DNA of 64,000 nucleotides, from positions 124,001 through 188,000 of the IMG/VR virus record IMGVR_UViG_3300025881_000985; one strand, given 5' to 3'. The DNA is from a virus. A program made the position numbers and the translations under genes. Shown here piece by piece: positions 23,647 through 39,640 of this stretch (the stretch's first letter is position 1; each line of letters opens with the position of its first letter). The notes beneath the pieces were generated by a model. That model had not been told where the DNA came from. It made no database searches and saw nothing but the letters and a program-made list of their open reading frames with translations.

Positions 23647-25131
23647 TTAACTGCAAACATCTATGCCGTATTGATCTTCAAAACGATCAGCATCAGCTCT
23701 AGTGTTTACTATTGGTTCACCTCTGATATTTAAACTGGTGTTTAGTAACATTGGGCATCCAGTTAGTATAAACCATTTTTCTAACATCTCTCTAATATGT
23801 TTAAACTCTGGCTCTTTACCTACAGTTTGTACTCTGCTTGAATTGTCAACATGACATATAGCAGGAAACTTTTTTGGAGATTTACATATTCCAACACTTT
23901 GCATATACGGACTATGAACCCAAGCCTTGGGCAAATCAAAATATGCTTGTGCTTGTTCTTCTAATATCATTGGAGCAAACGGCCTAAACTTTTGTCTACG
24001 TTTAATTTCGTTTACTCTATCTTTAATATCATCTCCTCTTGGATCTGCTAGTAAACTTCTATTGCCTAATGCTCGTGGTCCAAACTCTGCACGACCACTT
24101 GCTACACCTACAATTTGTTTTTCTAATAATAGATCAAGTAATTGGTCCACTGGATATTCACCCGGGATATCACAGCCCAAAAACGGACCTTGCCAGTTAA
24201 GTTTCTTTTTATAACTCAATGCCGCCGCACCTAAACTGCTACCTGCATCACCTGGGTTAGGCATAATCCAAATATTATCAAAACTATCAATTTTACTATT
24301 AGCGACACAATTGAGAGCAACACCACCCATTAATACCAAGTTGTTGCTGTAAAAACTATGCCTTGCTCTATTGCATAAACGAGTTACCAAGTGTTCAGTT
24401 ATAGCTTGTACACTAGCCGCAAGATCAATATCCAATGCTCCTGGCAAATAATCTTCGTCAATACCAGCATGACAATTTTGTCTAAATGTAAAGTCTCGTG
24501 AGTTTAGAATAAAGTCGTTGTATATTGTATCAAAATGTTTATTCTCACCCCAAGCGGCCATGCCCATAAAAATATACTCTTCGTCCATTGGCTTTAAACC
24601 AACATGTTTTGTCATTGCACTATAGAATAATCCCAAACTATGAGGATAACCTTGCTTCCATATTTGACGGTATCGTGCAATGCCTTGGTTATCATACATT
24701 GCTCGCCATATACTAGCGGTTGTAAATTCGCCAATGGCATCTATTACAACTACTGTAGCAACATCATATGGTGATGTTTGAAACCCTGCGGCCGCATGTG
24801 ATAAGTGATGATCATACTTATGAATTTTAGTGTTACACTGAAAAGGAACGCCTTGATTCTTTAATACATGCCTTACTGTAATGTTTGACCAATCAATTTT
24901 TTGGCCTGCATAACACTGTCTTACTTGTTTCTTAATTGGATCTTCGTAGTATGCAATAGTATCAATATCGTCAAAATCAACTTCGCTCAACAGCTCACGA
25001 CATAAGTCTTTATCATTTTTATTTCTACTATATCTTTCGCTATGACTTGCAAATGAAATATTTCCTTGTTCGTCTACAACGCTTACTGCCGCATCATGAA
25101 ATCCAGCTGATATTCCTAATATACTCATCAA
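23647..25131 (-). CDS. NodU/TobZ-type O-carbamoyltransferase
   Basis: A 494-residue carbamoyltransferase that transfers a carbamoyl group from carbamoyl phosphate, through carbamoyl adenylate, to a hydroxyl, usually of a sugar. The N-terminal Kae1-like domain has ILGISAGFHDAAVSVVD, the metal site KYDHHLSHAAAGF, VVVIDAIGE and MGGVALNCVAN. The C-terminal YrdC-like domain has GRAEFGPRALGNRSLLADPR and FRPFAPMI, ending with GCPMLLNTSLNIRGEPI. Close to full family length. It overlaps the SGNH gene upstream by 38 bases. A tailoring role on a phage- or host-made glycan is the natural reading. Confidence 0.95.
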   Translation of the reverse strand: MMSILGISAGFHDAAVSVVDEQGNISFASHSERYSRNKNDKDLCRELLSEVDFDDIDTIAYYEDPIKKQVRQCYAGQKIDWSNITVRHVLKNQGVPFQCNTKIHKYDHHLSHAAAGFQTSPYDVATVVVIDAIGEFTTASIWRAMYDNQGIARYRQIWKQGYPHSLGLFYSAMTKHVGLKPMDEEYIFMGMAAWGENKHFDTIYNDFILNSRDFTFRQNCHAGIDEDYLPGALDIDLAASVQAITEHLVTRLCNRARHSFYSNNLVLMGGVALNCVANSKIDSFDNIWIMPNPGDAGSSLGAAALSYKKKLNWQGPFLGCDIPGEYPVDQLLDLLLEKQIVGVASGRAEFGPRALGNRSLLADPRGDDIKDRVNEIKRRQKFRPFAPMILEEQAQAYFDLPKAWVHSPYMQSVGICKSPKKFPAICHVDNSSRVQTVGKEPEFKHIREMLEKWFILTGCPMLLNTSLNIRGEPIVNTRADADRFEDQYGIDVCS

Positions 25132-25750
25132 TAACCTTTGCTATTCTTTTGTGTCCAAGTTCTAAAGGATGACCTCCAGGACCTTTAACACAATTTCCTT
25201 GCCATTCTAGTATGCCGTCTTTAGGCCAACCAACAAAGAATCTTTTATCAATTTCTCTAAACTGAGCTTCAAGAAGTTGATAGTATTCGTCATAGTAACC
25301 TTGTAAACCAGCTACATTATACATTAGATAACGTTGATTACGATTTAGTAAAAATCCTTGCAATGCAATTATCTGATTAAACTGTTTTCGAAATCCCCAA
25401 GCGATATCATAACTATACTTATAATAGTCTGTTATCCAGTCTGGTTCTTTTTGTGTTCGAGCACGAATTGACATGAACTGCGAAGGTTCTGTATTTGGTA
25501 AATCAAGTGCTTCAAAACGACTTTGTTCCGGCCAACTTATTAATACTAAATCAAATGTTTCGTTGATTAAAGTTTCAATTGTTGTTCTAAAAACATAATC
25601 AGAACTAGCACCGCAAAGTCCTAGATTAACTACTTCGTCAAAGCCCAATAAGTTTTTCATTAGATATGGGTAGGCATCAACTTCTCTATTAGGAAGTTCA
25701 TCTCCATATGTAAAACTATCACCAACGGTTAATAATCTACGTTTACTCAT
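25094..25750 (-). CDS. SGNH/GDSL hydrolase-like protein
   Basis: A 218-residue protein. Block I is LTVGDSFTYGDEL with the nucleophile Ser, then NLGLCGASSDYVFR (block II), and a C-terminal GGHPLELGHKRIA holding the catalytic His. The Asp of the usual DxxH is Gly here. Probable carbohydrate esterase or acyltransferase. Its ATG overlaps the stop of the 34-residue gene (ATGA). Confidence 0.75.
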   Translation of the reverse strand: MSKRRLLTVGDSFTYGDELPNREVDAYPYLMKNLLGFDEVVNLGLCGASSDYVFRTTIETLINETFDLVLISWPEQSRFEALDLPNTEPSQFMSIRARTQKEPDWITDYYKYSYDIAWGFRKQFNQIIALQGFLLNRNQRYLMYNVAGLQGYYDEYYQLLEAQFREIDKRFFVGWPKDGILEWQGNCVKGPGGHPLELGHKRIAKVIDEYIRNISWIS

Positions 25751-25851
25751 TTATAGATAAACGGATCCCGTTTGCGTAATTCTTTAAGTTTTTTGCGATA
25801 TGCAATCTCTAATTTCACACGGTTAATTAAACTCTTAAACCATTTGATCAT
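25747..25851 (-). CDS. 34-residue basic peptide gene
   Basis: ATG at 25851, TGA at 25749-25747. The product begins MIKWFKSLINRVKLEIAY and ends in a very basic helix then KRDPFIYK. GGAG stands about 8 bases before the ATG. It overlaps the neighbouring genes at both ends (17 bases and ATGA), which strongly supports a real coupled gene. The ending KKLKELRKRDPFIY reminds me of tiny conserved proteins in marine T4-like phages. Amphipathic; possible membrane or nucleic-acid binding; function unknown. Confidence 0.65.
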   Translation of the reverse strand: MIKWFKSLINRVKLEIAYRKKLKELRKRDPFIYK

Positions 25852-26617
25852 TGAAAAACTCCTGCATTAGGTTTGCGGCTGATTTATGTGCATCTTCTAA
25901 GGGGTGTGTAGTGCCTACCTTGTATTTATTCTCTAGTGCCCACTGGTAAAAACCTCTAGGGTTCTGAGTTTCACCATTCTTTGTTCCTTCTGGAAACCAA
26001 AACCATTTGTTCATATCTATTAGATTGTACAAAGTTTTGATTGACACATCGGCATTTTCTATTGTATAATTGTATAATATACAGTTGTCAGCACAGGTAA
26101 ACATGTAGGGAATACTATTAGATTTTAAGTAGTTTTGTAAGTACACTATTTCTTTTAGTGTGCTATATATTTCCCAGTATTCACTGCTACCAACATGTTT
26201 ATAGAATGTTTGAGCAAAGCCAGCAACACCTGTCTCGTTTGCTCTTTTAATAGTATCTTGTTGAGCCGTTAGAATACCATCATCTTGGGTATGGAACTCT
26301 TTTTCAATTGAAGATAAGTCACTTTCAATTGTCCACGAGTTAATTGAATACCAATGCCCTGTACGTTGTTTGGTATCGTAATTGAAACGAAACTCATAGC
26401 GTCCTGGAAATGTCCAACTAACTATAGCAAACTTATCTTTTGTTAATGACTCTAATGCATTAATTGTTTGTCTAGCGATTGCTTCGTTGCTATTGCCAGG
26501 TGTTGCTACATTTATATAATTGGTATATTGTTGACTAACCAACTTTGTAAAATTATTATCAGAGTGTTCTAGTTCACTTCCTGCAACAAAACTATCACCC
26601 CCGGCTACTATAATCAT
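25835..26617 (-). CDS. SGNH/GDSL hydrolase-like protein
   Basis: A 260-residue protein with IIVAGGDSFVAGSEL (nucleophile block), NVATPGNSNEAIARQ (block II with Gly and Asn) and GTTHPLEDAHKSAANLM (catalytic His region). More divergent than its neighbour, with a long aromatic middle part. Candidate O-acyl esterase or transferase acting on the product of the cluster. It overlaps the 357-residue gene by 23 bases. Confidence 0.7.
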   Translation of the reverse strand: MIIVAGGDSFVAGSELEHSDNNFTKLVSQQYTNYINVATPGNSNEAIARQTINALESLTKDKFAIVSWTFPGRYEFRFNYDTKQRTGHWYSINSWTIESDLSSIEKEFHTQDDGILTAQQDTIKRANETGVAGFAQTFYKHVGSSEYWEIYSTLKEIVYLQNYLKSNSIPYMFTCADNCILYNYTIENADVSIKTLYNLIDMNKWFWFPEGTKNGETQNPRGFYQWALENKYKVGTTHPLEDAHKSAANLMQEFFNDQMV

Positions 26618-27668
26618 AACCTGGTTTTAACCTTTCAATTTGTACGTCATAATAATCCTTGTCTGTCCAGCAATAATCAAAATCACATGAAGCCTCAAGT
26701 GTTTCAATTTTTACAATGTCTAAGTGTTCGCCAATGATCTCCCACACTGTTTCAGGATTGTCTGTACCAAAACTACCTACTAGATCAACTTGTCCAACTG
26801 AATGATATCCATAGTTGTATTGTGTGTCATTGTGATTAAAACCATTACGCTCTAACCAATCTGCATATTCATCCATTCGTTGCTTGTGCCACGGATATTC
26901 ACCAGCATAGGTAATATCACGTGACCATTCAATGTCAAACTCGCCACTGTAGTAACGCAAATGAGTAATCTCTTCACACATTGCGTCTGTTAAATCAGGT
27001 GCGCCTTCATCAACGAACACTTCATATAATGTTTTTCCTACTTGAGTCCAGTGTTGGTAAACAGTACCAAAGGTACGATCATATCTTTCCTTGTTGAATG
27101 TCCGCTTATGCTCGTCGGGATAATCAAATCTAGGAGCATTTAAAAATGTTGTGATCTGAGACGGACGCATCCACTGCGGTGCCTCAATTTGTTTCTTCTG
27201 GCTCAGCATTAATGATTCTGCTTCGTGACACAAATTGTTTAACTGTCTAATAGCAAACTTAGTTTCGTGATTTGCTTTTTTATACCAGTCACTCAATCCC
27301 CATGCACTACCTTGTAGTACTTCAAAATGATTATGCAATCTGTTCATAATATCCTGATTTGGGTTCATGCCATCTCTCAATGTTTTTGGTGTAAATATTT
27401 CTCTTATTATATACTCCTTGTTAAAAAAATCATTGATAGTATTTTTGACCCACTGTAACTCTTTACATATGAAGTTAATATCTCTAGCAGTATTAGGAAA
27501 ACCCAAGAATAAAAAGTTCTTTTCTAAGTAGGAATCATTTATTAATAATCCATTTAATGCACCTAGCCAGTTACGTCCCATTATAGTTTGCTCAACGTCA
27601 ATATGAAAATCAACTGTTTTACTTTTGTTAACTGGATTTCTTAATACTACTTTAACTTCTCGTGTCAT
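26595..27668 (-). CDS. unknown 357-residue protein linked to the radical SAM array
   Basis: The start at 27668 is set by an ATGA overlap with the radical SAM stop. The protein has beta-like ends and a helical, His- and Trp-rich centre: NRLHNHFEVLQGSAWGLSD, IRQLNNLCHEAE and EEITHLRYYSGEFDIEW. The His/Glu-rich helices might bind metal, but no family is recognised. Its place between radical SAM and SGNH genes suggests it acts on the same substrate. Confidence 0.65.
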   Translation of the reverse strand: MTREVKVVLRNPVNKSKTVDFHIDVEQTIMGRNWLGALNGLLINDSYLEKNFLFLGFPNTARDINFICKELQWVKNTINDFFNKEYIIREIFTPKTLRDGMNPNQDIMNRLHNHFEVLQGSAWGLSDWYKKANHETKFAIRQLNNLCHEAESLMLSQKKQIEAPQWMRPSQITTFLNAPRFDYPDEHKRTFNKERYDRTFGTVYQHWTQVGKTLYEVFVDEGAPDLTDAMCEEITHLRYYSGEFDIEWSRDITYAGEYPWHKQRMDEYADWLERNGFNHNDTQYNYGYHSVGQVDLVGSFGTDNPETVWEIIGEHLDIVKIETLEASCDFDYCWTDKDYYDVQIERLKPGYDYSSRG

Positions 27669-28963
27669 ATTTCTAACCACCAATCTAATATATCATGCCG
27701 TGAAGATAGAATATCTGTCATCGTCAGATCTTGTGTTCTAATTTGTTCTAATTTTAATATACGTGCTTTGCCTTTTTGTAGTCCTGCTTCATACTGATCT
27801 GGCCATTGTTCTGCAAATGTTGGTCTATTCTTTAGTTGTACTAGCACATCTTTTAACGCACCATCAACTGAAGGAATAAGTTCATCTAACCATTTATCCA
27901 ACAGGTTACGAGGCAATGCCAATGGCGACATTACAATGTCAGGACTAAAACTAAAGATTACTTTAGCAAGTATTCCTACACCTAATCTTTTTGCGAGTTC
28001 TTGTATTTTTTGGACTTCAAAGAGTCCTGGTAAGGTAAGAGTGAAGTCAATACGAATTTGGCGCGAGTGGTTGCTGACCTCAACTCCTTTATTGAAGTTT
28101 TCAAGCCACTGGTCAAAATTGAGACCTGTTCGAATATACTCTCCAATTCGTCCCGTGCCATCGAGGCTTGCACATATTTGCCAATCACGTAGCCTAGCCA
28201 AAATATCAGTATAAAGATTAGTGCCAGAATAACTAATCCTAGATAAGTTAGTGTTATATCTTGCATAAACATTTGGTCCATCTCCTAGCTCTATAATTCT
28301 CTTCATATACCTCCAATGCTGTTCATACATTAAAGGTTCGCCACCTACCCAGTAGACTTCTTCTACGCGGTGACTTTCAACTGCTTCAGCAAACTCCTGT
28401 TCTATCTGAGTTGACTGAAATTTTTCTATTTGTTTTTTGAGATTAGGTCGCATCCAGTTGTTCTTAGGATCTTCCCAATTTATCATATTATGCTTACGTT
28501 GCTCGGCTTCCCAACTTGAACTGAGCATATCACCACACATACGACATTTGAAGTTGCATAGGTTTGAAAACCTATAATCCCAACTAACTGGCTTTAAACG
28601 GGTCGTACCATCAGGATCGGTGTGATCCCATATACTATCATATTTATGTCCAAATAGGTTATTAAAATAACTTCTGTAAACATCTGTGTTTAATAACTTG
28701 TTAGTACAAACTTCACATTCACTAAGTTCTTCACCAGACATCATTCTACGCCTAACACTTTTCATGTGTTCGCTGTTCCAGTGTTCGTCTAGTGTGGTAG
28801 GTTTATATTCACCTGTTCCTGAGTCTGTATCAATATACTGCTCAAAGTTCTGTGCTGGTTCTCTACTAGCACAACAAAGTCTGCGTTCTGTTTGCGGACT
28901 TAGGTAGGTATGTGTCCACGGAGCCATACACAAATTTTCAGGTTTTTTGTCTGGTTTTATCAT
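27665..28963 (-). CDS. radical SAM protein 6 of the array (CxxPW-type, with twitch-like Cys domain)
   Basis: A 432-residue radical SAM enzyme. The cluster-binding CNFKCRMC has Cys136, 140 and 143. EEVYWVGGEPLM is the GGEP SAM-binding motif. Before the barrel there is an extra Cys domain: Cys12 in CMAPW, Cys30-Cys31 and CEVC (83-86), fitting an auxiliary Fe-S cluster as in twitch/SPASM proteins but placed N-terminally. Use of 5'-deoxyadenosyl radical is expected; substrate unknown. It is separated from the other five by the 2OG oxygenase gene. Confidence 0.88.
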   Translation of the reverse strand: MIKPDKKPENLCMAPWTHTYLSPQTERRLCCASREPAQNFEQYIDTDSGTGEYKPTTLDEHWNSEHMKSVRRRMMSGEELSECEVCTNKLLNTDVYRSYFNNLFGHKYDSIWDHTDPDGTTRLKPVSWDYRFSNLCNFKCRMCGDMLSSSWEAEQRKHNMINWEDPKNNWMRPNLKKQIEKFQSTQIEQEFAEAVESHRVEEVYWVGGEPLMYEQHWRYMKRIIELGDGPNVYARYNTNLSRISYSGTNLYTDILARLRDWQICASLDGTGRIGEYIRTGLNFDQWLENFNKGVEVSNHSRQIRIDFTLTLPGLFEVQKIQELAKRLGVGILAKVIFSFSPDIVMSPLALPRNLLDKWLDELIPSVDGALKDVLVQLKNRPTFAEQWPDQYEAGLQKGKARILKLEQIRTQDLTMTDILSSRHDILDWWLEI

Positions 28964-28964
28964 A

Positions 28965-29474
28965 TTAAAAATTTACATATAAAGATTTTCGAATAACATT
29001 GTTAGGAACTTTACCTTTCATGCCGTGTTGTATTGTGTGCGAATTTAATAACATTAGTCCAGTATTTACTTCATAGTCAACTTCGTACTTGATATCATTT
29101 TCATACCAGTAAGTACCCATTGATTCACTGTTACTTTCTTCTCCTAAGTACAACATAATAATATTACAAACACTATTAGGATCATCAGTATGCATTGCGT
29201 TTTCATAGCCAGCATGATCAAACCATATTTCAACACCACGCACCTTTTGCTTGTCAATATCAAGGCTAGAAAATCTACCTGCTATTTCATTGCGTACAAT
29301 ACTATCACGATCAATATCTAACCACCACAACTCTCTGTAGCCTCCAAGATGCCATGTTTCAGTAATAGGGTCAAATTGCGTTGTATGATTAAACAACTTA
29401 TTTTTAACACCATTGGGGATATTGTGTTTTAACTTGTATCCGTTTGTGGATATTTGTTGTACCTCACGTATCAC
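28965..29474 (-). CDS. 2OG-Fe(II) oxygenase-like protein
   Basis: A 169-residue double-stranded beta-helix oxygenase. Iron ligands are seen as HxD in NAMHTDDPNSV and a distal His in HTIQHGMKGKV, with Arg in VIRKSLYVNF for 2-oxoglutarate. This resembles the prolyl-hydroxylase-like phage oxygenases. It should hydroxylate or oxidise a peptide, sugar or other part of the cluster product. It overlaps the radical SAM gene upstream by 11 bases, so the two are co-expressed. Confidence 0.8.
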   Translation of the reverse strand: MIREVQQISTNGYKLKHNIPNGVKNKLFNHTTQFDPITETWHLGGYRELWWLDIDRDSIVRNEIAGRFSSLDIDKQKVRGVEIWFDHAGYENAMHTDDPNSVCNIIMLYLGEESNSESMGTYWYENDIKYEVDYEVNTGLMLLNSHTIQHGMKGKVPNNVIRKSLYVNF

Positions 29475-30687
29475 TGTAACCCATTGCCTTTGCTATTTGT
29501 GTATGTGTTTCTAAAAAGTTTTCTTTACGATATGTATCTGTTTGTTTCATTAATCTAACAAAGTCTTTACCATTACTGCTAGGTCCATTGTCAATAAACT
29601 TTATTAGTTTATCAATTTCATTTTTATCGTGTGGATGAAATTGATCTTGTTTTAAACGATTGGTTACTATTTGTTTTGCTTCTATTGTCATTTCACCAAT
29701 GTTTTGGTGGCGCGGATCATGTAACATATTAAAGTGATGATAATCAAAGTCCTGTGTACGCATCCAGTCACATAAATCTTTCAAGTAGTAGACATTCTGA
29801 ATATTTACAGTTAAACAAATCTGTAACTTAATATTGTTATTCTGATCACGCAAGTCTCTAAAACGTTTTATATTTTCGCATACTTCGTCCCAGCGAGCTC
29901 CAAAACGTTCGTACTCAAATCGTTTGCCTACGTTATCAATACTAAATGCAATCTCAACATACTTAAACTCTTTCCATAAATGTACAAACTCTTCTGGATA
30001 TTGTGTGCCGTTGGTATTGTAATGTATTTCAATATCTTTTGCAAAGCCGCCGTCAACTGCTTGTTGTAGCAATTGAAAGTGTTCTTTGATCATAAAAGGT
30101 TCACCACCTGTAAACTCAAAGTATTTTATGTTAGGCAGTAAGTCAATCATGTTCTCCCAAAATACTTCAGACTCACGAGGCCACTTGCCATCTTTAAGCC
30201 ACTTGTATGCAATATGATCCTTGGCATTTCTATTTTTGTATTTGCGTATATAATCAATTTCTTCTCTTGCCCATTTACTGCTTGACCAACTTCCACATAT
30301 ACGACATTTAAGATTACAAATGTTTCCAAGTTTTAGATCAATAAACCATAAACTGTCAGGATTGGTGTCAGAAAAATCTATCAACGGGCGTTCATGTTTG
30401 AAACGCACATCTGTGTTCATGCGTTTGCTTGTGCGTCCTGCATCTTCTTCATCCCAACAGCGACTACATGTTTTAGGTTTTTCTCCACGCAAAAACTGTT
30501 CACGTAAATCAACCATGTATTCGCTTTTATATATTTCTTCAAGTGTATTTTCTCGTAGTGCATACTTTGTACCATCTGGTTTTGTAATTTCGTCCATTGC
30601 TAAACAACAAGGTCGACTGGTACCCATTGGTGTTGTTTCCATACTAACCCAAGGTAACATACATATTGTCTTGGAATTATTATCCAC
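29464..30687 (-). CDS. radical SAM protein 5 of the array (CxxPW-type)
   Basis: A 407-residue radical SAM enzyme. CNLKCRIC has Cys124, 128 and 131; KYFEFTGGEPFMI carries GGEP. The N-terminal Cys domain shows ICMLPW (Cys9), PCCL (27-28) and CSRC (74-77). A later Ser-Ile-Asp strand (EIAFSIDNVG) matches the barrel. It overlaps its neighbours by 11 and 8 bases. Paralogue of proteins 3 and 6; the sequence is clearly divergent, so a different step or substrate is likely. Confidence 0.88.
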   Translation of the reverse strand: MDNNSKTICMLPWVSMETTPMGTSRPCCLAMDEITKPDGTKYALRENTLEEIYKSEYMVDLREQFLRGEKPKTCSRCWDEEDAGRTSKRMNTDVRFKHERPLIDFSDTNPDSLWFIDLKLGNICNLKCRICGSWSSSKWAREEIDYIRKYKNRNAKDHIAYKWLKDGKWPRESEVFWENMIDLLPNIKYFEFTGGEPFMIKEHFQLLQQAVDGGFAKDIEIHYNTNGTQYPEEFVHLWKEFKYVEIAFSIDNVGKRFEYERFGARWDEVCENIKRFRDLRDQNNNIKLQICLTVNIQNVYYLKDLCDWMRTQDFDYHHFNMLHDPRHQNIGEMTIEAKQIVTNRLKQDQFHPHDKNEIDKLIKFIDNGPSSNGKDFVRLMKQTDTYRKENFLETHTQIAKAMGYSDT

Positions 30688-32005
30688 GTGCCGACTCCAA
30701 CTCCGGAAATGTTTTCCAAAAATCTTCGTTGCGTATGCGATCTAACTTTGTAATTTCTTCTTCAAACCTTGGCCATTCTTTTGATCCATCGTTGCTCATC
30801 ATAAAGTTAATAGCACTTTCAAATCCTGTTGTTGCTCTACGTAACTTATCTTGTGGATCTAACCATTCAATGTGTTTGCGATATGCAGGTTCAATAACTT
30901 CTTTTTTAAACTTCTCTGGAAAAATATCAATACGATACCATTCAGGACTTTGACAAATATTAACATTAAAATCCTGTGGTTGAATAAACCCTTTTTCAAC
31001 CCAGTCTTTGTGAAAGTCTAGTACATGTAAAACGTTTTGACTAGTGACTGTAGCACTAACATAAAAGTCAACATGTGGCACTTCAGCCATCATACGTACT
31101 CTGTTTTCTTCAGTCTGTTTCCAATCTGCACCTTTGCGTATTAGCTCTGCTTGTGGACCCATGCCATCAAGACTAGCACCAACATTTACTGTTTTAAACT
31201 GTTTCCAATAATCAAATACATGCTTTTTCTTGTAACGCATTTCACTAAAGTTTGTATTGTATACCAAACGCACATCAGTCTTGCCTAGTTCAATTAAACG
31301 CTCAAGCAAGTAATAATGCTCCTTCATAATCAAAGGTTCACCACCTGCAAAATATACTTGTTCTAAATACGGAATATGTTCTTCCATTTGATTCAGCATT
31401 CCGTCTTCATCGCCAGTTGTGTACTCTACTCTGGCCATGTCTCTTTTAAGCACATCAGGTACTCTTCCGTACAGTTTTACATGATCGTTGAACCAGTTAC
31501 TGCTAAAAATAGGACCACAAGAACGGCATTTAAAGTTACATAGGTTACTGAAGCGTATATCCCAATAACGCAACTTAAACTCAGGATGTTCGCCATCTTC
31601 TGTTGTTTGATTTACTTCTTCGATCAAATGTCCGTAGTTTCTATTAGCATCATTTCGCATACTAAAGAAACCGTTTTGTTCTTGTTCATAGCATTTAGTA
31701 CATTCTTTACATGGCTTGTCTTCAAGCATGTTTTTACGCATTGTTTTATACGCATCTTGATTCCATACTTCACGCATTGTGTCTTTGCGTAAGTCTCCAA
31801 TTGGATGCCAGTAATCACCTAAACAACAAGGATACACTCTACCATCTGGAAAGGCATGCATGTGAACCCAAGGCAACATACAAAAGTTATCCTCTTTGAC
31901 AAGTCTGCTAAGTTGCTTGTCTGTTAAATCTTCAGGCTTGACAAAGTGCGGAGTTCTTTCGTTATAATCATATTTTTCATAAAAGTCTTTTTTACTTGAG
32001 TCCAT
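30680..32005 (-). CDS. radical SAM protein 4 of the array (CxxPW-type)
   Basis: A 441-residue radical SAM enzyme with a longer N-terminus. The Cys domain shows FCMLPW (Cys42), PCCLGD (60-61) and CKECTKC (99-105). CNFKCRSC is at Cys156, 160 and 163. VYFAGGEPLIM is the GGEP motif and GASLDGMGPQ the later strand. The C-terminus KLDRIRNEDFWKTFPELES resembles the ends of proteins 1 and 3, suggesting a shared docking tail. It overlaps its neighbours by 8 and 14 bases. Confidence 0.88.
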   Translation of the reverse strand: MDSSKKDFYEKYDYNERTPHFVKPEDLTDKQLSRLVKEDNFCMLPWVHMHAFPDGRVYPCCLGDYWHPIGDLRKDTMREVWNQDAYKTMRKNMLEDKPCKECTKCYEQEQNGFFSMRNDANRNYGHLIEEVNQTTEDGEHPEFKLRYWDIRFSNLCNFKCRSCGPIFSSNWFNDHVKLYGRVPDVLKRDMARVEYTTGDEDGMLNQMEEHIPYLEQVYFAGGEPLIMKEHYYLLERLIELGKTDVRLVYNTNFSEMRYKKKHVFDYWKQFKTVNVGASLDGMGPQAELIRKGADWKQTEENRVRMMAEVPHVDFYVSATVTSQNVLHVLDFHKDWVEKGFIQPQDFNVNICQSPEWYRIDIFPEKFKKEVIEPAYRKHIEWLDPQDKLRRATTGFESAINFMMSNDGSKEWPRFEEEITKLDRIRNEDFWKTFPELESARG

Positions 32006-33347
32006 TGTACCACTCCGCTAAGGTTGGAAACGTAGCGGTAAAGTCTTTACCTCTGCGTTGGTCGTATTGTGAATAAAATTGTTTAAAATCGTTGTGAAGT
32101 TTAGGCATTTCAAATGTTTCTCTATGTGGAGTTTTAACAACATCTAAGTAATCAATTAAACGCTGTACATGATTAATTTCGTGTTCATGTAACATTGCAT
32201 GGTTACGAAAATTAGATAACCAATCTTGTAATCTTTGCTTGTGATGTTCCCTAATCTCGTCAGGTAACACAAGAGGTGATTGGAAACTTGGAAAGCGTAA
32301 AATATTGAGTGTAAAGTTTGGAAAGTCTCTGCCAAACTTTGATTTCCATTCTAGCATCCACGTTAAGAACTCAGGTAAACTTTCTAAGCATAATGCATTA
32401 ATGGTATTCATTACATGCAATCCTCGTAGTTTACCACTTCGTATCAGTAGCTCTACGTTTGCTGTCCATTGTTTCCATTCTAATCCATCACGTATATATT
32501 CGGCTTGTAGACCCATACTCTCGTTGCTGGTATATAAGTCTAATTCAAGATGTTCTGCCGCATCAAGCAATTTCTCAACTTTTTCGCTTTCAAATCCCAA
32601 GTTGCTGTTAATAGCAATTCGAGTTTTTGACTTACCTTTGTTTTCTTTAAACCAATCAAACAGGTCCCATGTGTGACCGCTCATCAACGGCTCTCCGCCA
32701 GTGATACGTAATTCTTGTAATGTTTCGTGCAAGTCACTTTCCCACCATTTGAAAAATGCTTCAACGTATGGGTTGGTTTCGGAATACTTGTACAAACTTG
32801 CTTCGTTGTGTTCATGTGTAAAGTGATTACGACCATCGCTTTCTAGACCGGCATATGCTCCATTCTTTTTAATATCTTTAACCCATGTAGTACTGAACGC
32901 TGGGTTACAATAACTACATGCAAACTGACAAGTTCTATCAAAAGCAATTTCAAGTGTACGCAAGTTAACATCATCTTCCGGAGGTGTATTGTATGCATCT
33001 TGTAATAATTTGTCACTGTAGATTACACTTTTGTAAACTCTATCACTGATATTATCTCGTTTAATATCTTCAATCTTCCAGCAGTATTCGCAACCTTTGG
33101 GCCTTACACCTGTGAGCATATCAGCACGATCTTGTTTCTTTTGTGAACTGTTGTGCAATGCTCTTGGATTAAATTTAACTTCATCAACATCAACTTTGTG
33201 TGCTGGTGGATGATGACAACTTGTAGTCATACCACTGCCTAACCATATAGTAGCATTATACCATTTGGCTCCACAAAAACTTGCACTCTTTGGATCAAGA
33301 ATTCTTTTTCTAAATTCTAAATCTGTTTCATTAACTAACTTAGGCAA
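31992..33347 (-). CDS. radical SAM protein 3 of the array (AKW/CHHPP-type)
   Basis: A 451-residue radical SAM enzyme of the second subtype. CQFACSYC has Cys140, 144 and 147; RITGGEPLM is the GGEP motif. The N-terminal region differs from the CxxPW subtype: CGAKWYNATIW then SCHHPPAHK (44-51) and CEYCW (86-90). The tail QYDQRRGKDFTATFPTLAEW is shared with protein 1. It overlaps its neighbours by 14 and 8 bases. Substrate unknown. Confidence 0.87.
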   Translation of the reverse strand: MPKLVNETDLEFRKRILDPKSASFCGAKWYNATIWLGSGMTTSCHHPPAHKVDVDEVKFNPRALHNSSQKKQDRADMLTGVRPKGCEYCWKIEDIKRDNISDRVYKSVIYSDKLLQDAYNTPPEDDVNLRTLEIAFDRTCQFACSYCNPAFSTTWVKDIKKNGAYAGLESDGRNHFTHEHNEASLYKYSETNPYVEAFFKWWESDLHETLQELRITGGEPLMSGHTWDLFDWFKENKGKSKTRIAINSNLGFESEKVEKLLDAAEHLELDLYTSNESMGLQAEYIRDGLEWKQWTANVELLIRSGKLRGLHVMNTINALCLESLPEFLTWMLEWKSKFGRDFPNFTLNILRFPSFQSPLVLPDEIREHHKQRLQDWLSNFRNHAMLHEHEINHVQRLIDYLDVVKTPHRETFEMPKLHNDFKQFYSQYDQRRGKDFTATFPTLAEWYNGLK

Positions 33348-34431
33348 AGTGTTCCTCCATTTCGGATATATAGTTTACTATCTTTGTGCCACGATGTCTA
33401 TCTCTAATAGTAATCATATCTAAAAATTCTTTCCAGTTTTCTTCATTGGAGTTATCCAATGTATTGATAATTCCTTCTAAACCATTTTGTGCTTCGTAGT
33501 CAACAGCACGAAGTCTATCTTGTGCAAGTTGAGCTAATTCTTTTGGCAAACATACAGGTGCCAGATAATGAGGCTTTGTTAATATATCAAACTGTACAAA
33601 AAGCTCTTCCTGTTCAGCCCACTCTAATAATCTATCAATATATAATACATTTAAATTTTGTACGACTGTGTTTACAAAAATATTAGCATCGGGTATTTGA
33701 CGCATCAACTCTATATTATTAGTTATAACATTCCATTTACTTGGATATCTTATGTAATGATTAAGTTCTGCATATCCGTCAATACTTAAACACATCTTAA
33801 TGTCGTGTGCTGACAATACATCAACCCAACTTTGATCAAATTTAGTTCCATTTGTTGCAATCATTATTTCTTTACGTTGTGTCAATGATGAAAGAATATC
33901 GCGAACCCAAGGCAACATAAACGGTTCGCCTCCTCTTAGAATAAAACTATCACAGTGTTCCATTATTTCAAGTATCTTGTAATTGTCTTTTTCATTCCAA
34001 TCGTATTTCTTCTGATCCCATACCTTGTCAAACAGTTTGTTTTCTTCAACTAAAAATTGACTACTAGATTGCGGATTACACATCAAGCATTTCAAGTTAC
34101 ATAAATTTGATAACTGTATTTCCCAATCCAGTGGCTGTTCTGTTTGTTCTGTTATGTCACTCCAACGTTCATTGCTGTACTGTCGAAAACTTTTTGATCC
34201 TTGCTCCTCTTGTTTATAACAACGAACACATTCATCACTGTGTTCATTGTTCTTTATACGCTTTCTTAGATCATTGAGATAATCGCTATTCCACCACTCG
34301 TCAACAGAGTGTGTTTTCATATTAAAATCTGTTGTAACAAAACTACGACAACAAGGCATAAAACGTCCTTGGGTGTCTACTAGACTATGCATAAACGGAC
34401 GCACACAAAATTTATCGTTATCTTTGAGCAT
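33340..34431 (-). CDS. radical SAM protein 2 of the array (CxxPW-like, short)
   Basis: A 363-residue radical SAM enzyme, the shortest of the six. FCVRPF (Cys9) takes the place of CxxPW, then PCCRS (27-28) and CVRC (68-71). CNLKCLMC has Cys111, 115 and 118; FILRGGEPFML gives GGEP. The C-terminus ends with ITIRDRHRGTKIVNYI rather than the WKTFPELE-type tail. It overlaps its neighbours by 8 and 14 bases. Confidence 0.87.
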   Translation of the reverse strand: MLKDNDKFCVRPFMHSLVDTQGRFMPCCRSFVTTDFNMKTHSVDEWWNSDYLNDLRKRIKNNEHSDECVRCYKQEEQGSKSFRQYSNERWSDITEQTEQPLDWEIQLSNLCNLKCLMCNPQSSSQFLVEENKLFDKVWDQKKYDWNEKDNYKILEIMEHCDSFILRGGEPFMLPWVRDILSSLTQRKEIMIATNGTKFDQSWVDVLSAHDIKMCLSIDGYAELNHYIRYPSKWNVITNNIELMRQIPDANIFVNTVVQNLNVLYIDRLLEWAEQEELFVQFDILTKPHYLAPVCLPKELAQLAQDRLRAVDYEAQNGLEGIINTLDNSNEENWKEFLDMITIRDRHRGTKIVNYISEMEEHFA

Positions 34432-35824
34432 AATATCTACACTGTTTCCAAAACTCTTCCATCTCAGGAAATGTTGCTAAAAAGTTTGTGTCTCTGCGTT
34501 TATCGTGTTCAGTAAAGAACCTATAAAAGTCTGCACGATTGTTTTGCAAATATTGTTCAGGTAATTCATCTCCTTTACGCATCCACGCTATATCTCTACG
34601 CATACGCTGTACTTCATAATCTTTAAATCCGTGGAATGGATCGTCTTTGGTTTCTAAGTTTCGTTCCATCCAATTTGCAACTTCTTCTAATTTTTCAGCA
34701 TAAGGCCATGGCAATATCTGTAGACTTTGCCAAGTTGGTTGACGCAACAATGGTGTATCAAACCATATACGCTGATAAGTTGAACTAAACGCTTTACGTA
34801 AATCAAGTATCCATTCTAACTGCTTTTTAATTCCACTCACACTCAAGTTATTCATTGTAATAATAAATGTTAAACTATTACGCTCGGGCACCTCTCCTAA
34901 ATACCTATATACATTATGATGCATACGAGTCCATTGAAGTCCGTGCCTAATATATTCTGCTTGTTCTGGCACACCAGTGTCAAGGCTAACATATTGCATA
35001 AAATGTTCTATTTGTGTTTTACATAACTTTTTTACGTAACCAATATACTTTTCAAACAGTTTATCTTCAACACTGAAGTTGCTTGTTACATTTAGATGTA
35101 ACTCTGGATTTGGTAATGCTAGTACATAATCAAACACACGATATGTATTGTTATCCATCAACGGTTCACCACCAGTCATACGGAAATGTTTTAGGTGTGG
35201 GTATAACGAGGGCCACCATTCCCAAAACGCATCAACATATGGATTTTCTTCTCTGTGTGGAATTGGTCTATTACGCCCAACAAAATGTTCAGGTGCATTA
35301 TGCGGAACACTAGTAGGATATGCTCCTACTTTTTTAGTTTCCTTCATCCATGTGCTACTAAATTGTGGACTGCAATACGAACAGGCCAAGTTACATGCAT
35401 TATTAAAATTAACTTCAACGTAACTAGGTTTCCAGTCTTCGTCACCAGTACTGTTTTTAATTGCTTCGTAATCACTGGCCGCCCAAGGTTCTCCACTGCG
35501 ATAATGTCTATCGCTTAGGTTACCTGAATCCTCAATGTTCCAGCAATACTGACACTCTGGAGGACGTTCACCTTTGAGCATCATTTTACGCTGTTCTTTT
35601 TTGTGTTCTGTATTGTGCAATGCATTAGGATCGAGTTTTACTTTCTCGCGATCCATTTGATGCAACGGAGGATGATAGCAACTATTATTCAGCCCTGTTG
35701 GTAAATGAAAACTTACTTGTTTCCATTTTGCTAAACACAAGCCGTGGCCAAGATTATCTTTCATAAACTCGGCACTAGCCATAAACTTACTTTTATTACC
35801 TACGGATTCGTCACCCTTGTTCAT
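34418..35824 (-). CDS. radical SAM protein 1 of the array (AKW/CHPP-type)
   Basis: A 468-residue radical SAM enzyme, closest to protein 3. CNLACSYC has Cys144, 148 and 151; FRMTGGEPLMD is the GGEP motif. N-terminal part: LCLAKWKQVSFH, SCYHPPLHQMD (49-58) and CQYCWNIEDS (91-100). The tail FFTEHDKRRDTNFLATFPEM matches that of protein 3. It starts directly after the stop of the DUF59 gene, so Fe-S factor and enzymes are made together. Confidence 0.87.
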   Translation of the reverse strand: MNKGDESVGNKSKFMASAEFMKDNLGHGLCLAKWKQVSFHLPTGLNNSCYHPPLHQMDREKVKLDPNALHNTEHKKEQRKMMLKGERPPECQYCWNIEDSGNLSDRHYRSGEPWAASDYEAIKNSTGDEDWKPSYVEVNFNNACNLACSYCSPQFSSTWMKETKKVGAYPTSVPHNAPEHFVGRNRPIPHREENPYVDAFWEWWPSLYPHLKHFRMTGGEPLMDNNTYRVFDYVLALPNPELHLNVTSNFSVEDKLFEKYIGYVKKLCKTQIEHFMQYVSLDTGVPEQAEYIRHGLQWTRMHHNVYRYLGEVPERNSLTFIITMNNLSVSGIKKQLEWILDLRKAFSSTYQRIWFDTPLLRQPTWQSLQILPWPYAEKLEEVANWMERNLETKDDPFHGFKDYEVQRMRRDIAWMRKGDELPEQYLQNNRADFYRFFTEHDKRRDTNFLATFPEMEEFWKQCRYYAQR

Positions 35825-36127
35825 TTACCATCCCATCATAAATCGAGTTTCTTCAGGTACCATTTCTATTGTAAACGGTGGATCAAATGTTGTGTTAACA
35901 ATAACACTCAACACTTCTGGTGCATACCCTGCTTGTTGTATATCACTAACAATTTGATCTGCAAACGGACAGAATGCACTTGTTAATGTGTGCGTGATTG
36001 TAACTTCGTATTCGCTTTGATCTATCGCAATATCGTATATCAATCCTAAATCATATACATTACAACTTATTTCTGGATCAAAAACTTTACGTAAGTTTTC
36101 AATAACAATATCTTTATCTATTGCCAT
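35825..36127 (-). CDS. SufT/MIP18 (DUF59) family Fe-S assembly factor
   Basis: A 100-residue protein covering exactly one DUF59 domain: KVFDPEISCNVYDLGLIYDI, the TLTSAFCPFADQI loop with the conserved Cys53, then VNTTFDPPFTIEMV and a final ETRFMMGW. Members such as SufT, PaaD and eukaryotic MIP18 help mature or target Fe-S proteins. Placed immediately upstream of six [4Fe-4S] radical SAM genes with 1-base spacing, it most likely supplies or repairs their clusters; this link is inference from position. Confidence 0.85.
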   Translation of the reverse strand: MAIDKDIVIENLRKVFDPEISCNVYDLGLIYDIAIDQSEYEVTITHTLTSAFCPFADQIVSDIQQAGYAPEVLSVIVNTTFDPPFTIEMVPEETRFMMGW

Positions 36128-36128
36128 T

Positions 36129-37061
36129 TTACCAACCCTCTATTCTGCGAATAACATCAATTTCTTTTGTCATTAGCTCTAAGTTTTTATGACCAGTTGC
36201 ATAGTGATATTTAAAGAAAGCACTTTGTTCTGCATCAAGTTCAACAATATTTAATGCTAATCTATTATTAAGTAATTCTGTAATAGTTTCCATGTCATTA
36301 TGATTTCCTATTGCAGTAACTTCGAGGTATTCTTCATGTAAGTATGCAAGTTTATCAAAGTCTTGTACTTGAGTAAAATCCCAATCCGACAACATTGTTT
36401 TGTATGTGCCGTACCGAGCTCCGTTGATTGCTTCTTCTCCGTGTTCAACATCACGACCAATTGTTTGCCAAATCTGCAAGTGATCTAGATTACGTTTCTT
36501 TGCGTTATCATCGAACTCTTGCAGACTTGGCTTGCGTCCACGATCTAAGCACATTTTAACACCTTCGCGAAAACCAGCCCTCCAGGCATGATATTGACTT
36601 CCGTTAGGATATGTAGTGCTATAGCAGTTGTGCATAGGGTAGTAAGTTTCCTCGAAACAAAACTCTACAGCCGTTTCGTGACTCCCGTCACTTGCTTCGT
36701 GGGTTCGCATATTGTTAACAAAGCCTTTGCTCCAGACACTCATGCCACCATTACCATACATTAATCCATTAATGTGGTTACGTGCTTTCCATCTAAAAGC
36801 AGAGTCTTCGCCAGGCGTTTCAATTTGTAAATTAAAAAACTCTGGATCTGGAATATTATCGCCATCAATTAAAACAAAAAAGTTAGTGTCACTTGCATCA
36901 GCACACGCCTTATGAGCCGCATCTGATCCTTTAACGTTATCTACTCGTTTTGCCCATGGAACAATATTCTGTATTTGTAGCCAGAATTCTTCTTTCTGAG
37001 GTTCGTCATAACTTAAATAGATGCAGTCTAAATCTGCAACATCAGTGATTTTCAAATCCAT
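36129..37061 (-). CDS. GT-A-type glycosyltransferase
   Basis: A 310-residue protein with a Rossmann-like start (LDCIYLSYDEPQKEEFW), then KACADASDTNFFVLIDGDN, where DGD is a DxD metal/nucleotide-sugar motif. The middle AFRWKARNHINGLMYGNGG and AWRAGFREGVKM recur in the last unit of the 883-residue protein, so the two are related. GGAG lies before the ATG. It overlaps the 95-residue gene by 20 bases. Donor and acceptor unknown. Confidence 0.72.
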   Translation of the reverse strand: MDLKITDVADLDCIYLSYDEPQKEEFWLQIQNIVPWAKRVDNVKGSDAAHKACADASDTNFFVLIDGDNIPDPEFFNLQIETPGEDSAFRWKARNHINGLMYGNGGMSVWSKGFVNNMRTHEASDGSHETAVEFCFEETYYPMHNCYSTTYPNGSQYHAWRAGFREGVKMCLDRGRKPSLQEFDDNAKKRNLDHLQIWQTIGRDVEHGEEAINGARYGTYKTMLSDWDFTQVQDFDKLAYLHEEYLEVTAIGNHNDMETITELLNNRLALNIVELDAEQSAFFKYHYATGHKNLELMTKEIDVIRRIEGW

Positions 37062-37329
37062 AGTATTGCCCTTCTCCGGAGTTAATTAATATACCAGCAT
37101 GATTCTTAGCAGACTTATACGAACTGATTTTACATTTTTGTAATAACATTTGATCAGGATTATCTGTTGCACGAGTAAGTTTTCCATTGACTACTCTTAG
37201 GCGTGTATACTCAGGTCTATCGTACATTGCTTTATTGATACGAATAAATCTACCAGGAACCTCTTCATTGACTGTTATCCTAATAGGCATTCCTGCCTCA
37301 TCATAGTATAACCTGTAGATAAAATCCAT
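37042..37329 (-). CDS. 95-residue unknown protein
   Basis: The start at 37329 is fixed by a TAATG overlap with the 41-residue membrane-protein gene; a longer frame to 37386 lies over that gene and lacks a ribosome site. The product begins MDFIYRLYYDEAGMPIRITV and is mostly beta with basic patches (RPEYTRLRVVNGKLTRATD). No family is recognised. Confidence 0.6.
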   Translation of the reverse strand: MDFIYRLYYDEAGMPIRITVNEEVPGRFIRINKAMYDRPEYTRLRVVNGKLTRATDNPDQMLLQKCKISSYKSAKNHAGILINSGEGQYYGFENH

Positions 37330-37454
37330 TATTTTAAAATCCATAGCAGAGTTAATCCCACTGTAAGGAATGCAAGTAAATGCCATATCTTAAGTTTAGG
37401 ATACACAACGTGGCCTTTGTTTTCGTCTTGTAAATCATCCCATATGTTTTTCAT
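37329..37454 (-). CDS. 41-residue single-span membrane protein
   Basis: ATG at 37454, TAA at 37331-37329. The N-terminus is polar (MKNIWDDLQDENKGHVVYPK), followed by one hydrophobic span, WHLLAFLTVGLTLLWIL, and a final Lys. AAGGAG lies upstream. It overlaps the GT gene by 20 bases and is coupled to the next gene by TAATG. It could anchor the glycosyltransferases at the inner membrane; this is inference. Confidence 0.6.
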   Translation of the reverse strand: MKNIWDDLQDENKGHVVYPKLKIWHLLAFLTVGLTLLWILK

Positions 37455-38289
37455 AGTCTTGTATTAACTCCTTAACTTTAAATTTTTTATCATGATAATG
37501 TACTGGTTGAAGTTGTTGTACGTTATTAATACGCAATTCATTTAATTCATTTTCAACCAGCACACTATCAAATATTTGTGTACTCTCAGCCCAACCTTGT
37601 ATACCCGGTTTCATATGTGCAAATGTAAAGAAATCTAAGCTAGGAACATAAGGCTCAATTTCTAACATTGCTGATACAATACTGTAAACAACATCAGTTG
37701 TAGGATTTTCATCACGTATATTAGTAAGTGCAAAATCACGCACTTCAGTCCAGTTACGATATACGTCACGAGCTAGGGTAAAAAACTCTGTTGCTTCGCG
37801 ACTGTACCGGAAATACATCATACCATTATATACATCAGGTAAATTATTATCACTGAATAACTTACGATAGCGATTGCCTGTGTATAAACGTTGTTGCAGA
37901 TCTACTACTCCATGACTTAAAACTACATTTCTTAATCTAAGTGCTGGCCACCAATGGGAGATATTCCTTGGAAACAGCAAATCAGATTCAAGTTTGATGG
38001 TCTCTTTAAACGGCGTTAACCAGAATGATTGCCATTCGTTGGCCAACTTCCATTCATCATTTTCAGCTTCATCAATTTCTAGGGTAATAACGTAGTCGAA
38101 CGCACGGCGTTGAGTGTCTGTTATTTGAGACTTAGTAAACTCGTCAACTATGACAGCATATAGACTGTCGGGCTGAGTTACCTTTATATTTAGCGCCTGA
38201 AGGTAGGCCAGCTCTAAATAATCCACATCATTTGTGTTCTGTGCAATAGTTAGAAATCCTCTTTGAGCACAATGTGGTTGTTTACGCAT
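37435..38289 (-). CDS. glycosyltransferase-like protein (GT8/GT-A type)
   Basis: A 284-residue protein resembling nucleotide-diphospho-sugar transferases. GFLTIAQNTNDVDYLELAYLQA is parallel to the start of the 248-residue protein encoded next (GVLIFATNTKEIDYIKIA), so they are paralogues. The expected DxD is seen as KLESDLLFP, with Glu-Ser-Asp in place of DxD, and NGMMYFRYS follows. A late His (PVHYHDKKFK) may bind metal. Overlaps both neighbours slightly. Confidence 0.6.
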   Translation of the reverse strand: MRKQPHCAQRGFLTIAQNTNDVDYLELAYLQALNIKVTQPDSLYAVIVDEFTKSQITDTQRRAFDYVITLEIDEAENDEWKLANEWQSFWLTPFKETIKLESDLLFPRNISHWWPALRLRNVVLSHGVVDLQQRLYTGNRYRKLFSDNNLPDVYNGMMYFRYSREATEFFTLARDVYRNWTEVRDFALTNIRDENPTTDVVYSIVSAMLEIEPYVPSLDFFTFAHMKPGIQGWAESTQIFDSVLVENELNELRINNVQQLQPVHYHDKKFKVKELIQDYEKHMG

Positions 38290-39028: not shown

Positions 39029-39317
39029 GTTTTAGTTCCTGGTGTTGAGTATGCCAATCATTCATTACTGCTTGGTAACGTTGATTGGCTAACTCTAATA
39101 ATTCATAACGTTTAATAGCAATAGGATTATTATACGTATCTTCGAGGAACATGTCTTCGTCGTTCCAGGTTGACAAAAAAGAAATTAGTTCAGGTGTGAT
39201 ATAAAACAGTCCACCATTATAGGTTACATGTAACTCTGTAACCATTTTTTCTCTAAGTGCTTTTTTATTTGTTTGGAATTTAGTAGCTGACTTAACACGT
39301 TCTACTATATCAGTCAT
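39012..39317 (-). CDS. unknown phage protein
   Basis: A 101-residue protein with a basic N-terminal helix, a short beta part (TELHVTYNGGLFYITPELISFL) and a long C-terminal helix (IKRYELLELANQRYQAVMND). Reminiscent of small conserved proteins in T4-like marine phages, but I cannot name a function. Second gene of the cluster, 1 base after the ACP stop. Confidence 0.65.
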   Translation of the reverse strand: MTDIVERVKSATKFQTNKKALREKMVTELHVTYNGGLFYITPELISFLSTWNDEDMFLEDTYNNPIAIKRYELLELANQRYQAVMNDWHTQHQELKRVRKV

Positions 39318-39318
39318 A

Positions 39319-39573: not shown

Positions 39574-39601
39574 GTAATACTCCTAAACGAAAGTTGCTAG
39601 T

Positions 39602-39630
39602 AGTATATAACAAAAAACCCACTCTGTCAA
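39602..39630 (-). promoter_or_regulatory. sigma70-type promoter of the biosynthetic cluster
   Basis: On the minus strand: TTGACA (39630-39625), 17 bases, TATACT (39607-39602). The -35 lies in the loop of the terminator hairpin at 39613-39640, so termination and initiation share the same DNA. The leader to the ACP gene is short and contains AGGAG. Confidence 0.85.
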
Positions 39631-39640
39631 GTGGGTTTTT
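39613..39640 (-). terminator. bidirectional terminator between structural genes and cluster
   Basis: An 11-base perfect stem (AAAAACCCACT and AGTGGGTTTTT) with a 6-base loop and T-runs on both strands. It follows the stop of the tail protein at 39670 and should stop late transcripts before they enter the ACP cluster. Confidence 0.88.

Follow-up and report, generated by a model that had tools for sequence, protein, structure and literature searches.

What would a phage do with half a dozen radical S-adenosylmethionine (radical SAM) enzymes encoded in one tight array? The question arises from a window of 64,000 bases, the whole stretch of DNA analysed here, which corresponds to bases 124001-188000 of the 194,556-base viral record IMGVR_UViG_3300025881_000985. 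The initial annotation had described positions 27665-36127 of this window as an array of six radical SAM genes, with a 2-oxoglutarate (2OG)-Fe(II) oxygenase gene between the fifth and the sixth and a gene for a DUF59 iron-sulphur (Fe-S) maturation factor just ahead, and had proposed that the set works as one assembly line on a shared product. The array lies in a single dense gene string of roughly 17 kb that runs on the minus strand from 39.6 to 22.7 kb, in the order acyl carrier protein (ACP), h101, GT248, GT284, h114, GT310, DUF59, rA, rB, rC, rD, rE, 2OG, rF, h362, h260, GDSL218, NodU, h139 and peptide deformylase, where rA to rF are the radical SAM genes. Our analyses partly support the proposed interpretation. 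The array is somewhat more probably than otherwise the core of a phage operon for the assembly and chemical editing of a glycan, with the host surface as its likeliest acceptor.

Conservation of the array in uncultured viruses

Viral contigs were scanned with three queries. The rD scan led to 16 loci and the GT310 scan to 380 relatives, of which 80 were kept. The scan with an rF alignment yielded at least 479 confirmed relatives, paralogs possibly among them, from which the best 80 loci by rF similarity (at least 69% identity) were retained; these come from related phages, with duplicates kept. Loci L010 and L011 were left out of the analysis. Upstream counts refer to the 65 of the 80 rF loci with 8.5 kb upstream of rF (15 were short) and downstream counts to the 67 with 4.5 kb downstream (13 were short). 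Genes were named at two levels, at 33% identity or at any identity with an E value of 1e-5.

At the 33% level, four radical SAM genes precede rF in constant order, namely rA (65/65 loci), rC (65/65), rD (62/65) and rE (64/65). GT310 is in view in 51 of the 65 loci, and downstream of rF both h362 and NodU are present throughout (67/67 each). Most of the 80 GT310 loci, whose genes were named by similarity to those of the window, share the order giant virion protein, h232, tail fibre, h307, h101, GT248, GT284, h114, GT310, rA, rC, rD, rE, rF, h362, NodU. In the window, the five recurrent enzymes are encoded on the minus strand at 34418-35824 (rA), 31992-33347 (rC), 30680-32005 (rD), 29464-30687 (rE) and 27665-28963 (rF), and h362, the constant partner of rF, at 26595-27683. 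Related phages thus do not carry these genes singly and at unrelated places, a pattern that the initial annotation had suggested looking for; the order is conserved.

The number of enzymes nevertheless varies. Counted up to rF, radical SAM-like genes number five in 39 of the 65 loci, six in 18, seven in 4, eight in 1 and four in 3; six to eight are therefore found in 23 loci. We surveyed 88-119 distinct junctions per gene pair, taking as inserts those of at least 110 residues. Inserts are frequent between GT310 and rA (59/111), rA and rC (72/119), rE and rF (54/110) and h362 and NodU (40/88), and few between rC and rD (13/113) and rD and rE (16/112). No insert separates rF from h362 in any of 102 junctions. 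Where these genes are adjacent they mostly overlap, in 93 of 96 pairs for rF-h362, 96 of 99 for rC-rD and 93 of 95 for rD-rE. What is conserved is the frame GT248-GT284-GT310-rA-rC-rD-rE-rF-h362-NodU, whose slots take up variable cargo, often an extra radical SAM gene. It reaches well past both limits of the interval first proposed as the unit (27665-36127), from GT248 through NodU, and the variable slots appear to recruit further members of the radical SAM family. A recurrent insert family (L041:12096-13109 and about 69 similar sequences; 69 members in 45 loci) also fills variable slots of the array and resembles window positions 5533-6543 and 21647-22729. It matched no family in Pfam or the PDB and may at most resemble GT10.

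Several genes of the window belong to this variable cargo. At 33% identity, rB (33340-34431), the 2OG-like gene (28965-29474) and the ACP gene (39319-39573; PF00550, E 4e-14), all on the minus strand, were found in none of the 65 rF loci, and the DUF59 gene (35825-36127, minus strand; PF01883, E 4e-11) in one, where it stands 6.0 kb downstream of rF. At any identity with an E value of 1e-5, rB-like genes occur in 3 of the 65 loci (25-27% identical) and 2OG-like genes in 3 (29-32% identical, all 3.9-5.2 kb downstream of rF). The ACP gene heads the operon in the window, yet 0/65 rF loci carry one. We therefore rejected the particular six-enzyme unit of the window, given rB in 0/65 loci, as well as DUF59 as a required maturation factor, given its presence in 1/65. 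Given these counts and the inserts at certain junctions, rB, 2OG and DUF59 of the window fill variable slots of a fixed frame. Divergence agrees with this placement for two of the three, rB and 2OG: the synonymous divergence (dS) from the relative L015 is 0.29 for rB and 0.17 for 2OG, against 1.0-2.2 for the five core radical SAM genes, which is consistent with recent swapping; rB was probably swapped in. The corresponding values are 0.70 for h362, 0.70 for the tail-fibre gene tfG2 and 1.35 for DUF59.

The annotation of the array thus stands in part. The set is tightly packed, and what is conserved in it is five enzymes and not these six plus 2OG plus DUF59. The overlaps of 8-14 bases hold for five of seven junctions (14, 8, 14, 8 and 11 bases from rA to 2OG); 2OG and rF are separated by 1 base and DUF59 and rA by 0 bases. 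A 2OG-like gene does lie between the fifth and sixth enzymes, and seven distinct sequences, that of the window and those of L015, L035, L251, L285, L286 and L292, show a HxD...H(G/A)...RxS motif when read by eye, with no support for the protein from Pfam, NCBIfam, PHROG or the PDB. DUF59 does lie just ahead of rA as a DUF59/PaaD/SufT-like protein; its nearest NCBIfam model is TIGR02945 (SUF_assoc), below cut-off.

Family and motifs of the radical SAM enzymes

All six enzymes match NF033640 (N_Twi_rSAM) above its curated cut-off of 170 bits, with scores of 318.8 (rA), 280.8 (rB), 307 (rC), 406.4 (rD), 351 (rE) and 299.3 bits (rF), which confirms six full-length radical SAM genes at the positions first described. 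NF033640 is a subfamily model, whose name implies neither a reaction nor an ordered operon of five paralogs. A seventh N_Twi radical SAM gene at 39,073-40,113 of the record also exceeds the cut-off; it is followed directly by a clpP-like gene (named by reading) and preceded by small lipoprotein-like genes.

Each of the six carries the CX3CX2C and GGEP motifs and a second, N-terminal Cys domain, as had been noted. These motifs were followed in the best matches of each enzyme (n=50, 7, 44, 33, 44 and 30 for rA to rF, window included); the rB set is not one of clean orthologs and includes radical SAM enzymes of Vibrio phages. All sequences of all six sets have the three Cys of the SAM cluster and the four auxiliary Cys of the N-terminal domain, and GGEP is found in 49/50, 5/7, 44/44, 32/33, 44/44 and 30/30, respectively. 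The SAM motifs, whose disruption had been raised as a possibility, are thus intact. The rF protein is 62-86% identical across 29 orthologs. Omega ranges from 0.035 to 0.126 for all six genes, with dS saturated in several pairs, and is mostly below that of the tail-fibre genes tfG2 and h307 (0.12-0.25). The order conserved in other contigs and these omega values argue that the array is beyond chance.

A profile of the radical SAM core of rE and rD found anSME as the best PDB relative (E 1e-8), then SkfB, and BlsE at 3e-4. Of these, anSME is a sulfatase-maturating enzyme with a protein substrate and BlsE a cytosylglucuronate decarboxylase. No solved homolog of rF was found in the PDB at an E value of 0.01. 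The N-terminal auxiliary domain aligns with the twitch region of BtrN (residues 166-257; E 0.004-0.006), an enzyme of butirosin biosynthesis that acts on an aminocyclitol. The match is weak and the twitch domain is C-terminal in BtrN; judged from the alignment, the auxiliary domain is probably a twitch domain relocated to the front of the protein.

A probable transcription unit and sugar-related genes

Just before the ACP gene lies a promoter motif, TTGACA-17-TATACT, which overlaps a T-run hairpin after h307 (39602-39640, minus strand, from a motif scan); the hairpin is near-palindromic, and the scan scored it on the plus strand. We examined 60 distinct gaps between h307 and the operon, together with shuffles that keep base composition only. 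A terminator-like hairpin is found in 39 of the 60 (0.2 in shuffles), a TG-preceded -10 element in 26 (2.1), any -10 element in 36 (17.4) and the T4-late-like motif ATAAATA in 1 (1.8). In the gap before h232, ATAAATA is found in 14 of 36 cases (1.8 in shuffles) and a hairpin in 1; in the gap before the next tail-fibre gene the figures are 28 of 48 (2.3) and 0. Neither motif is clear in 22 gaps between tfG2 and h307. The late-promoter reading is based on the xATAAATA sites in these gaps; a search of the window with TATAAATA returned 2 sites against 8.3 expected. Sigma-70-like sites across the region number 85, slightly above the shuffles (72.7, standard deviation 8.9). No gap of at least 25 bases was seen where GT310 and rA, or rE and rF, are adjacent. 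With the hairpin and TG-preceded -10 element at the operon boundary, ATAAATA at the tail-fibre gaps and tight radical SAM junctions, the operon looks like a sigma-70-type unit of its own, separate from the late tail-fibre message. No structured RNA reached the gathering score within 22-48 kb.

The most readily assigned partner of the enzymes is NodU (23647-25131, minus strand), which carries both carbamoyltransferase domains, Carbam_trans_N and _C (PF02543, E 6e-40; PF16861, E 1e-49). Its nearest PDB relatives include NovN (E 9e-53), TobZ (E 1e-36) and GdmN, and by sequence it is clearly an O-carbamoyltransferase, albeit of 494 residues against 576-702 in the PDB chains of these three proteins. 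NovN and TobZ act on sugar hydroxyls. Next to NodU on the same strand are an SGNH/GDSL-type protein, GDSL218 (25094-25750; PF19547 just above and PF13472 below cut-off), and h260, an SGNH-like protein (25835-26617) with weak similarity to GDSL218 (E 1e-5). Similar genes are found in 35 and 29 of the 67 rF loci, respectively (E 1e-5). On a single-cell marine virus contig (L297:2585-7955), two SGNH-like genes, a NodU gene and a radical SAM gene are consecutive, near an amidinotransferase-like gene (by reading). The AlphaFold2 model of h362 has a pLDDT of 86; a Foldseek search gave no convincing match (best E 1.2), and its VIA-align matches, to mitoribosomal proteins and cyclophilins, reach at most Z 8.5, a level that this tool calls common.

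Three glycosyltransferase-like genes precede the array on the minus strand. GT310 (36129-37061) has a predicted GT-A fold (pLDDT 85.7 in AlphaFold2, with the GT-A domain well modelled) that aligns with GT-A enzymes in VIA-align at Z up to 9.4, with a root mean square deviation of 3.3 over 135 residues, and its DGDN motif is invariant in 37 sequences. The GT284 (37435-38289) profile finds glycogenin in the PDB (E 4e-4), which makes this protein GT8-like. GT248 (38282-39028) has two invariant Asp residues, D81 and D83, and no notable PDB match. An 883-residue protein nearby contains a region similar to GT310 (pairwise E 7e-13). Past this protein, and convergent with the operon, the window has plus-strand genes for an NDP-sugar epimerase/dehydratase (16121-17128; PF01370) and a DegT/DnrJ/EryC1 aminotransferase (17019-18230; PF01041, E 6e-74); minus-strand homologs occur in 25 and 37, respectively, of the 54 rF loci with 11 kb downstream.

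The remaining genes of the string are those for the small proteins h114 (37042-37386) and h101 (39012-39317), for h139, and for the peptide deformylase that ends the operon (22718-23233; PF01327), all on the minus strand. Upstream of the string are tail-fibre genes, a baseplate wedge protein and a 4,413-residue virion protein, and a collagen-like tail fibre is situated near it. The virion protein (47670-60911) corresponds to PHROG 10938, and most GT310 loci with enough sequence on that side encode a relative of it upstream of the cassette. Among the 15 of 60 records listed, the best cultured matches of the wedge protein, 31-34% identical to it, come mostly from phages of 350-490 kb.

Bacterial counterparts and the acceptor of the putative glycan

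Cultured phages offer few comparisons. GT310, GT284, h362 and rC have no homologs among them at an E value of 1e-5, and weak matches are limited to three Vibrio phages and Marine virus AG-345-D19 for rD and to two Vibrio phages for rF; a plasmid search with rF found no homolog. In Vibrio phage K566, NF033640 matches six genes, two of them above cut-off. The six are about 23% identical to rD and stand in a different order; two GT8 genes (E 8e-8 and 2e-12) and a weak GT4 match are interspersed among them, and an annotated PagP is nearby.

A search of genome collections with the rE/rD alignment gave 138 stretches, from which 77 distinct loci were kept; 12 of these cellular-collection loci were set aside as phage-like, by eye from their gene content. 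The array-bearing contigs fall in metagenome-assembled genomes (MAGs) of unrelated taxa. A NodU-like open reading frame (ORF) is found in 10 of the 65 cellular loci (1.09 Mb) against 0.54 expected. This expectation derives from 19 NodU-like genes in the ten genomes that have one near a radical SAM gene, and the background rate is overstated for that reason. The nearest radical SAM gene is one gene away in five loci and three to seven genes away in the other five. In a Pfam scan of 148 of the 311 sampled cellular neighbours, Radical_SAM was found 14 times, GT2 4 times, carbamoyltransferase 3 times and ribosomal L21 3 times, along with other housekeeping families.

A Bacteriovoracaceae MAG encodes seven chromosomal N_Twi-type enzymes that match the phage types (L115:4830-14506), in the order rC-rF-rE-rD-rE-(143 residues)-rA-rC, flanked by obgE/rpmA-like and lgt-like genes (names by reading). 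No ORF of this locus is similar to NodU or to the glycosyltransferase-like genes of the window. Other Bdellovibrionota loci hold further radical SAM paralogs, and in one genome of this phylum an rF homolog lies between glmU-like and glmS-like genes (L212:8244-12831, by reading). Matches to rF of at least 250 bits were found in 11 of 368 Bdellovibrionota genomes, a count that takes in the query genomes. Among 296 genomes sampled around the Flavobacterium MAG there was 1, which is the contig that the search started from. In the listed part of a midpoint-rooted tree of 129 sequences, where some from Vibrio occur in duplicate, the phage members sampled (11) form exclusive clades for rC (support 0.97), rE (0.95) and rF (1.0); the rA (0.45) and rD (0.47) clades take in bacterial and other phage members, and rB is unresolved. 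The phage rF sequences are nested among those of Bdellovibrionota.

The initial annotation knew of no described phage pathway of this composition, which is too strong. A T4-like genome, TARA_ERS488813_N000010, has 12 radical SAM genes along with ATC (A-type carrier), grx and paaD (PMC5332604), and thus resembles the window in its many radical SAM genes and paaD. The comparison is by description; section 14 of that paper gives neither a gene order nor a linkage to glycosyltransferases or a carbamoyltransferase. In pelagimyophages, a host-recognition cluster holds glycosyltransferases, GT8 being the most represented, and radical SAM cassettes (PMC7029224); its location among tail-fibre genes is like that of our operon, and its authors propose host O-chain modification. 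In the accessible portions of that paper the cassettes are variable additions, with no conserved five-enzyme set, NodU or promoter boundary given. Radical SAM genes are also among the marine viral genes of PMC7150976 and PMC9301287. In the literature searched, with preprints and most subscription papers outside that search, we found neither the ordered set described, nor its division into core and accessory genes, nor its counterparts in Bdellovibrionota.

The neighbouring genes lead us to infer glycan tailoring of the host envelope or of the virion. Glycan tailoring is the best explanation because a carbamoyltransferase, glycosyltransferases, sugar-nucleotide enzymes and SGNH proteins surround five twitch-type enzymes. 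The sugar-related neighbours of the distant K566 enzymes, an independent association, the recurrence of NodU in bacterial loci and the weak BtrN match of the auxiliary domain also speak for it. In the mechanism that we propose, the glycosyltransferases would assemble a short glycan, and rA, rC, rD, rE and rF would each carry out one hydrogen-abstraction step on a sugar, such as an oxidation, epimerisation or deoxygenation, with a nucleotide-sugar or the glycan as substrate. The h362 protein may cooperate with rF. NodU would attach an O-carbamoyl group, and the SGNH proteins might add or remove O-acyl groups. Extra radical SAM enzymes, 2OG, ACP and other accessory genes would vary the product, and DUF59, if present, could aid Fe-S cluster loading. 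The likeliest acceptor would be a host surface glycan (lipopolysaccharide core or O-chain), altered before lysis such that sister and rival phages that use the receptor of the neighbouring tail fibres could not adsorb. We favour a host-surface acceptor because of the sigma-70-type promoter of the operon, its place in the host-recognition region and the K566 relatives beside GT8 and PagP genes; a promoter unlike the late type of the tail fibres fits an action on the host before assembly.

The same glycan chemistry might instead be directed at a virion protein, most likely a tail fibre encoded just upstream, which we consider the main alternative but a rather unlikely one. Tail-fibre genes adjoin the array in most GT310 loci, GT284 is glycogenin-like, and the fold matches of GT310 include the PBCV-1 capsid glycosyltransferase, LH3 and COLGALT1 (Z 7.7-8.0), with a collagen-like fibre nearby. 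However, numerous further GT-A enzymes score as well as these matches, few GT310 loci have a gene labelled as homologous to the collagen-like fibre, and the operon promoter is of the sigma-70 type whereas the tail fibres have late-type motifs. More doubtful still is a modification of phage or host protein residues, akin to that of ribosomally synthesised and post-translationally modified peptides (RiPPs) or to sulfatase maturation, with the sugar genes as unrelated cargo. Many SPASM/twitch enzymes act on peptides, and the closest solved structures, anSME and then SkfB, agree with such a role. Nevertheless, NodU is constant in the phages and recurrent in bacteria, and neither a RiPP precursor-like gene nor an extension of the RRE (RiPP recognition element) type was noticed, though no dedicated search was made; 8-41 residues precede the first auxiliary Cys.

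We give little weight to an auxiliary module for cofactor or Fe-S-dependent host metabolism. The 2017 survey PMC5332604 suggested such a role for phage Fe-S genes, its section 14 grouping radical SAM, ATC, grx and paaD genes as Fe-S metabolism, DUF59 is within the operon of the window, and the seventh enzyme of the record stands beside a clpP-like gene. Such a module is at odds with the rarity of DUF59 in rF loci and with the fixed linkage of the enzymes to the carbamoyltransferase and glycosyltransferase-like genes. Viperin-like defence, or production of nucleotide analogues, deserves almost no credence: pVip profiles match rB (E 4e-12) and rE (E 1e-10) weakly, with 44 bits at best. Against the viperin model NF038283, whose cut-off is 180 bits, the six enzymes reach at most 40.2 bits, no better than against several other radical SAM families, and they carry a four-Cys N-terminal cluster motif; a viperin identity was thus rejected.

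Several observations also weigh against sugar editing by a serial set of enzymes. The anSME match of the core keeps peptide substrates in play. The best Foldseek match of GT310 is weak (E 1.4e-3), and its GT-A fold is a common one. We recognised neither a flippase nor a membrane glycosyltransferase nor a ligase, albeit with no dedicated search. Three GT310 loci that are alike (L059, L062 and L063) have no radical SAM gene after GT310; the glycosyltransferase-like genes can therefore stand without these enzymes. Conversely, the bacterial counterparts imply that the enzyme set can exist without the phage sugar genes, which tempers the assembly-line reading. Other enzymes of these types are in view in 7 of the 11 Bdellovibrionota stretches with rF and none in 4, and the five enzymes therefore need not act in series; one assembly line with a shared product is plausible yet unproven. 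The cellular context of the relatives is only mildly glycan-like, and some of the ten NodU loci are closely related to each other, which leaves about six independent ones by our estimate. In Vibrio phage QD01, which grows on the laboratory strain Vibrio natriegens Vmax, all four NF033640 matches are under the cut-off, and an annotated heptosyltransferase-like neighbour has a GT9 score just under the Pfam cut-off. Lastly, the presumed timing of transcription is deduced from motifs.

A broader proposal, which we put forward tentatively and with less confidence than glycan editing itself, is that of a virus-encoded, multi-step sugar-editing line in which five ancient radical SAM paralogs, h362 and the carbamoyltransferase would make a non-host surface sugar. 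Uncultured large phages would carry the set in their hundreds, and some predatory Bdellovibrionota, its apparent source or exchange partner, would share it. If so, the set of radical enzymes fixed in this viral operon would be unusually large, and it would offer a defined target for new sugar chemistry. It would also explain, in a testable way, the clustering of radical SAM genes where aquatic phages encode host recognition. Which of these proteins deserve purification first follows from the division into core and accessory genes and from the rF-h362 pair, which no insert breaks.

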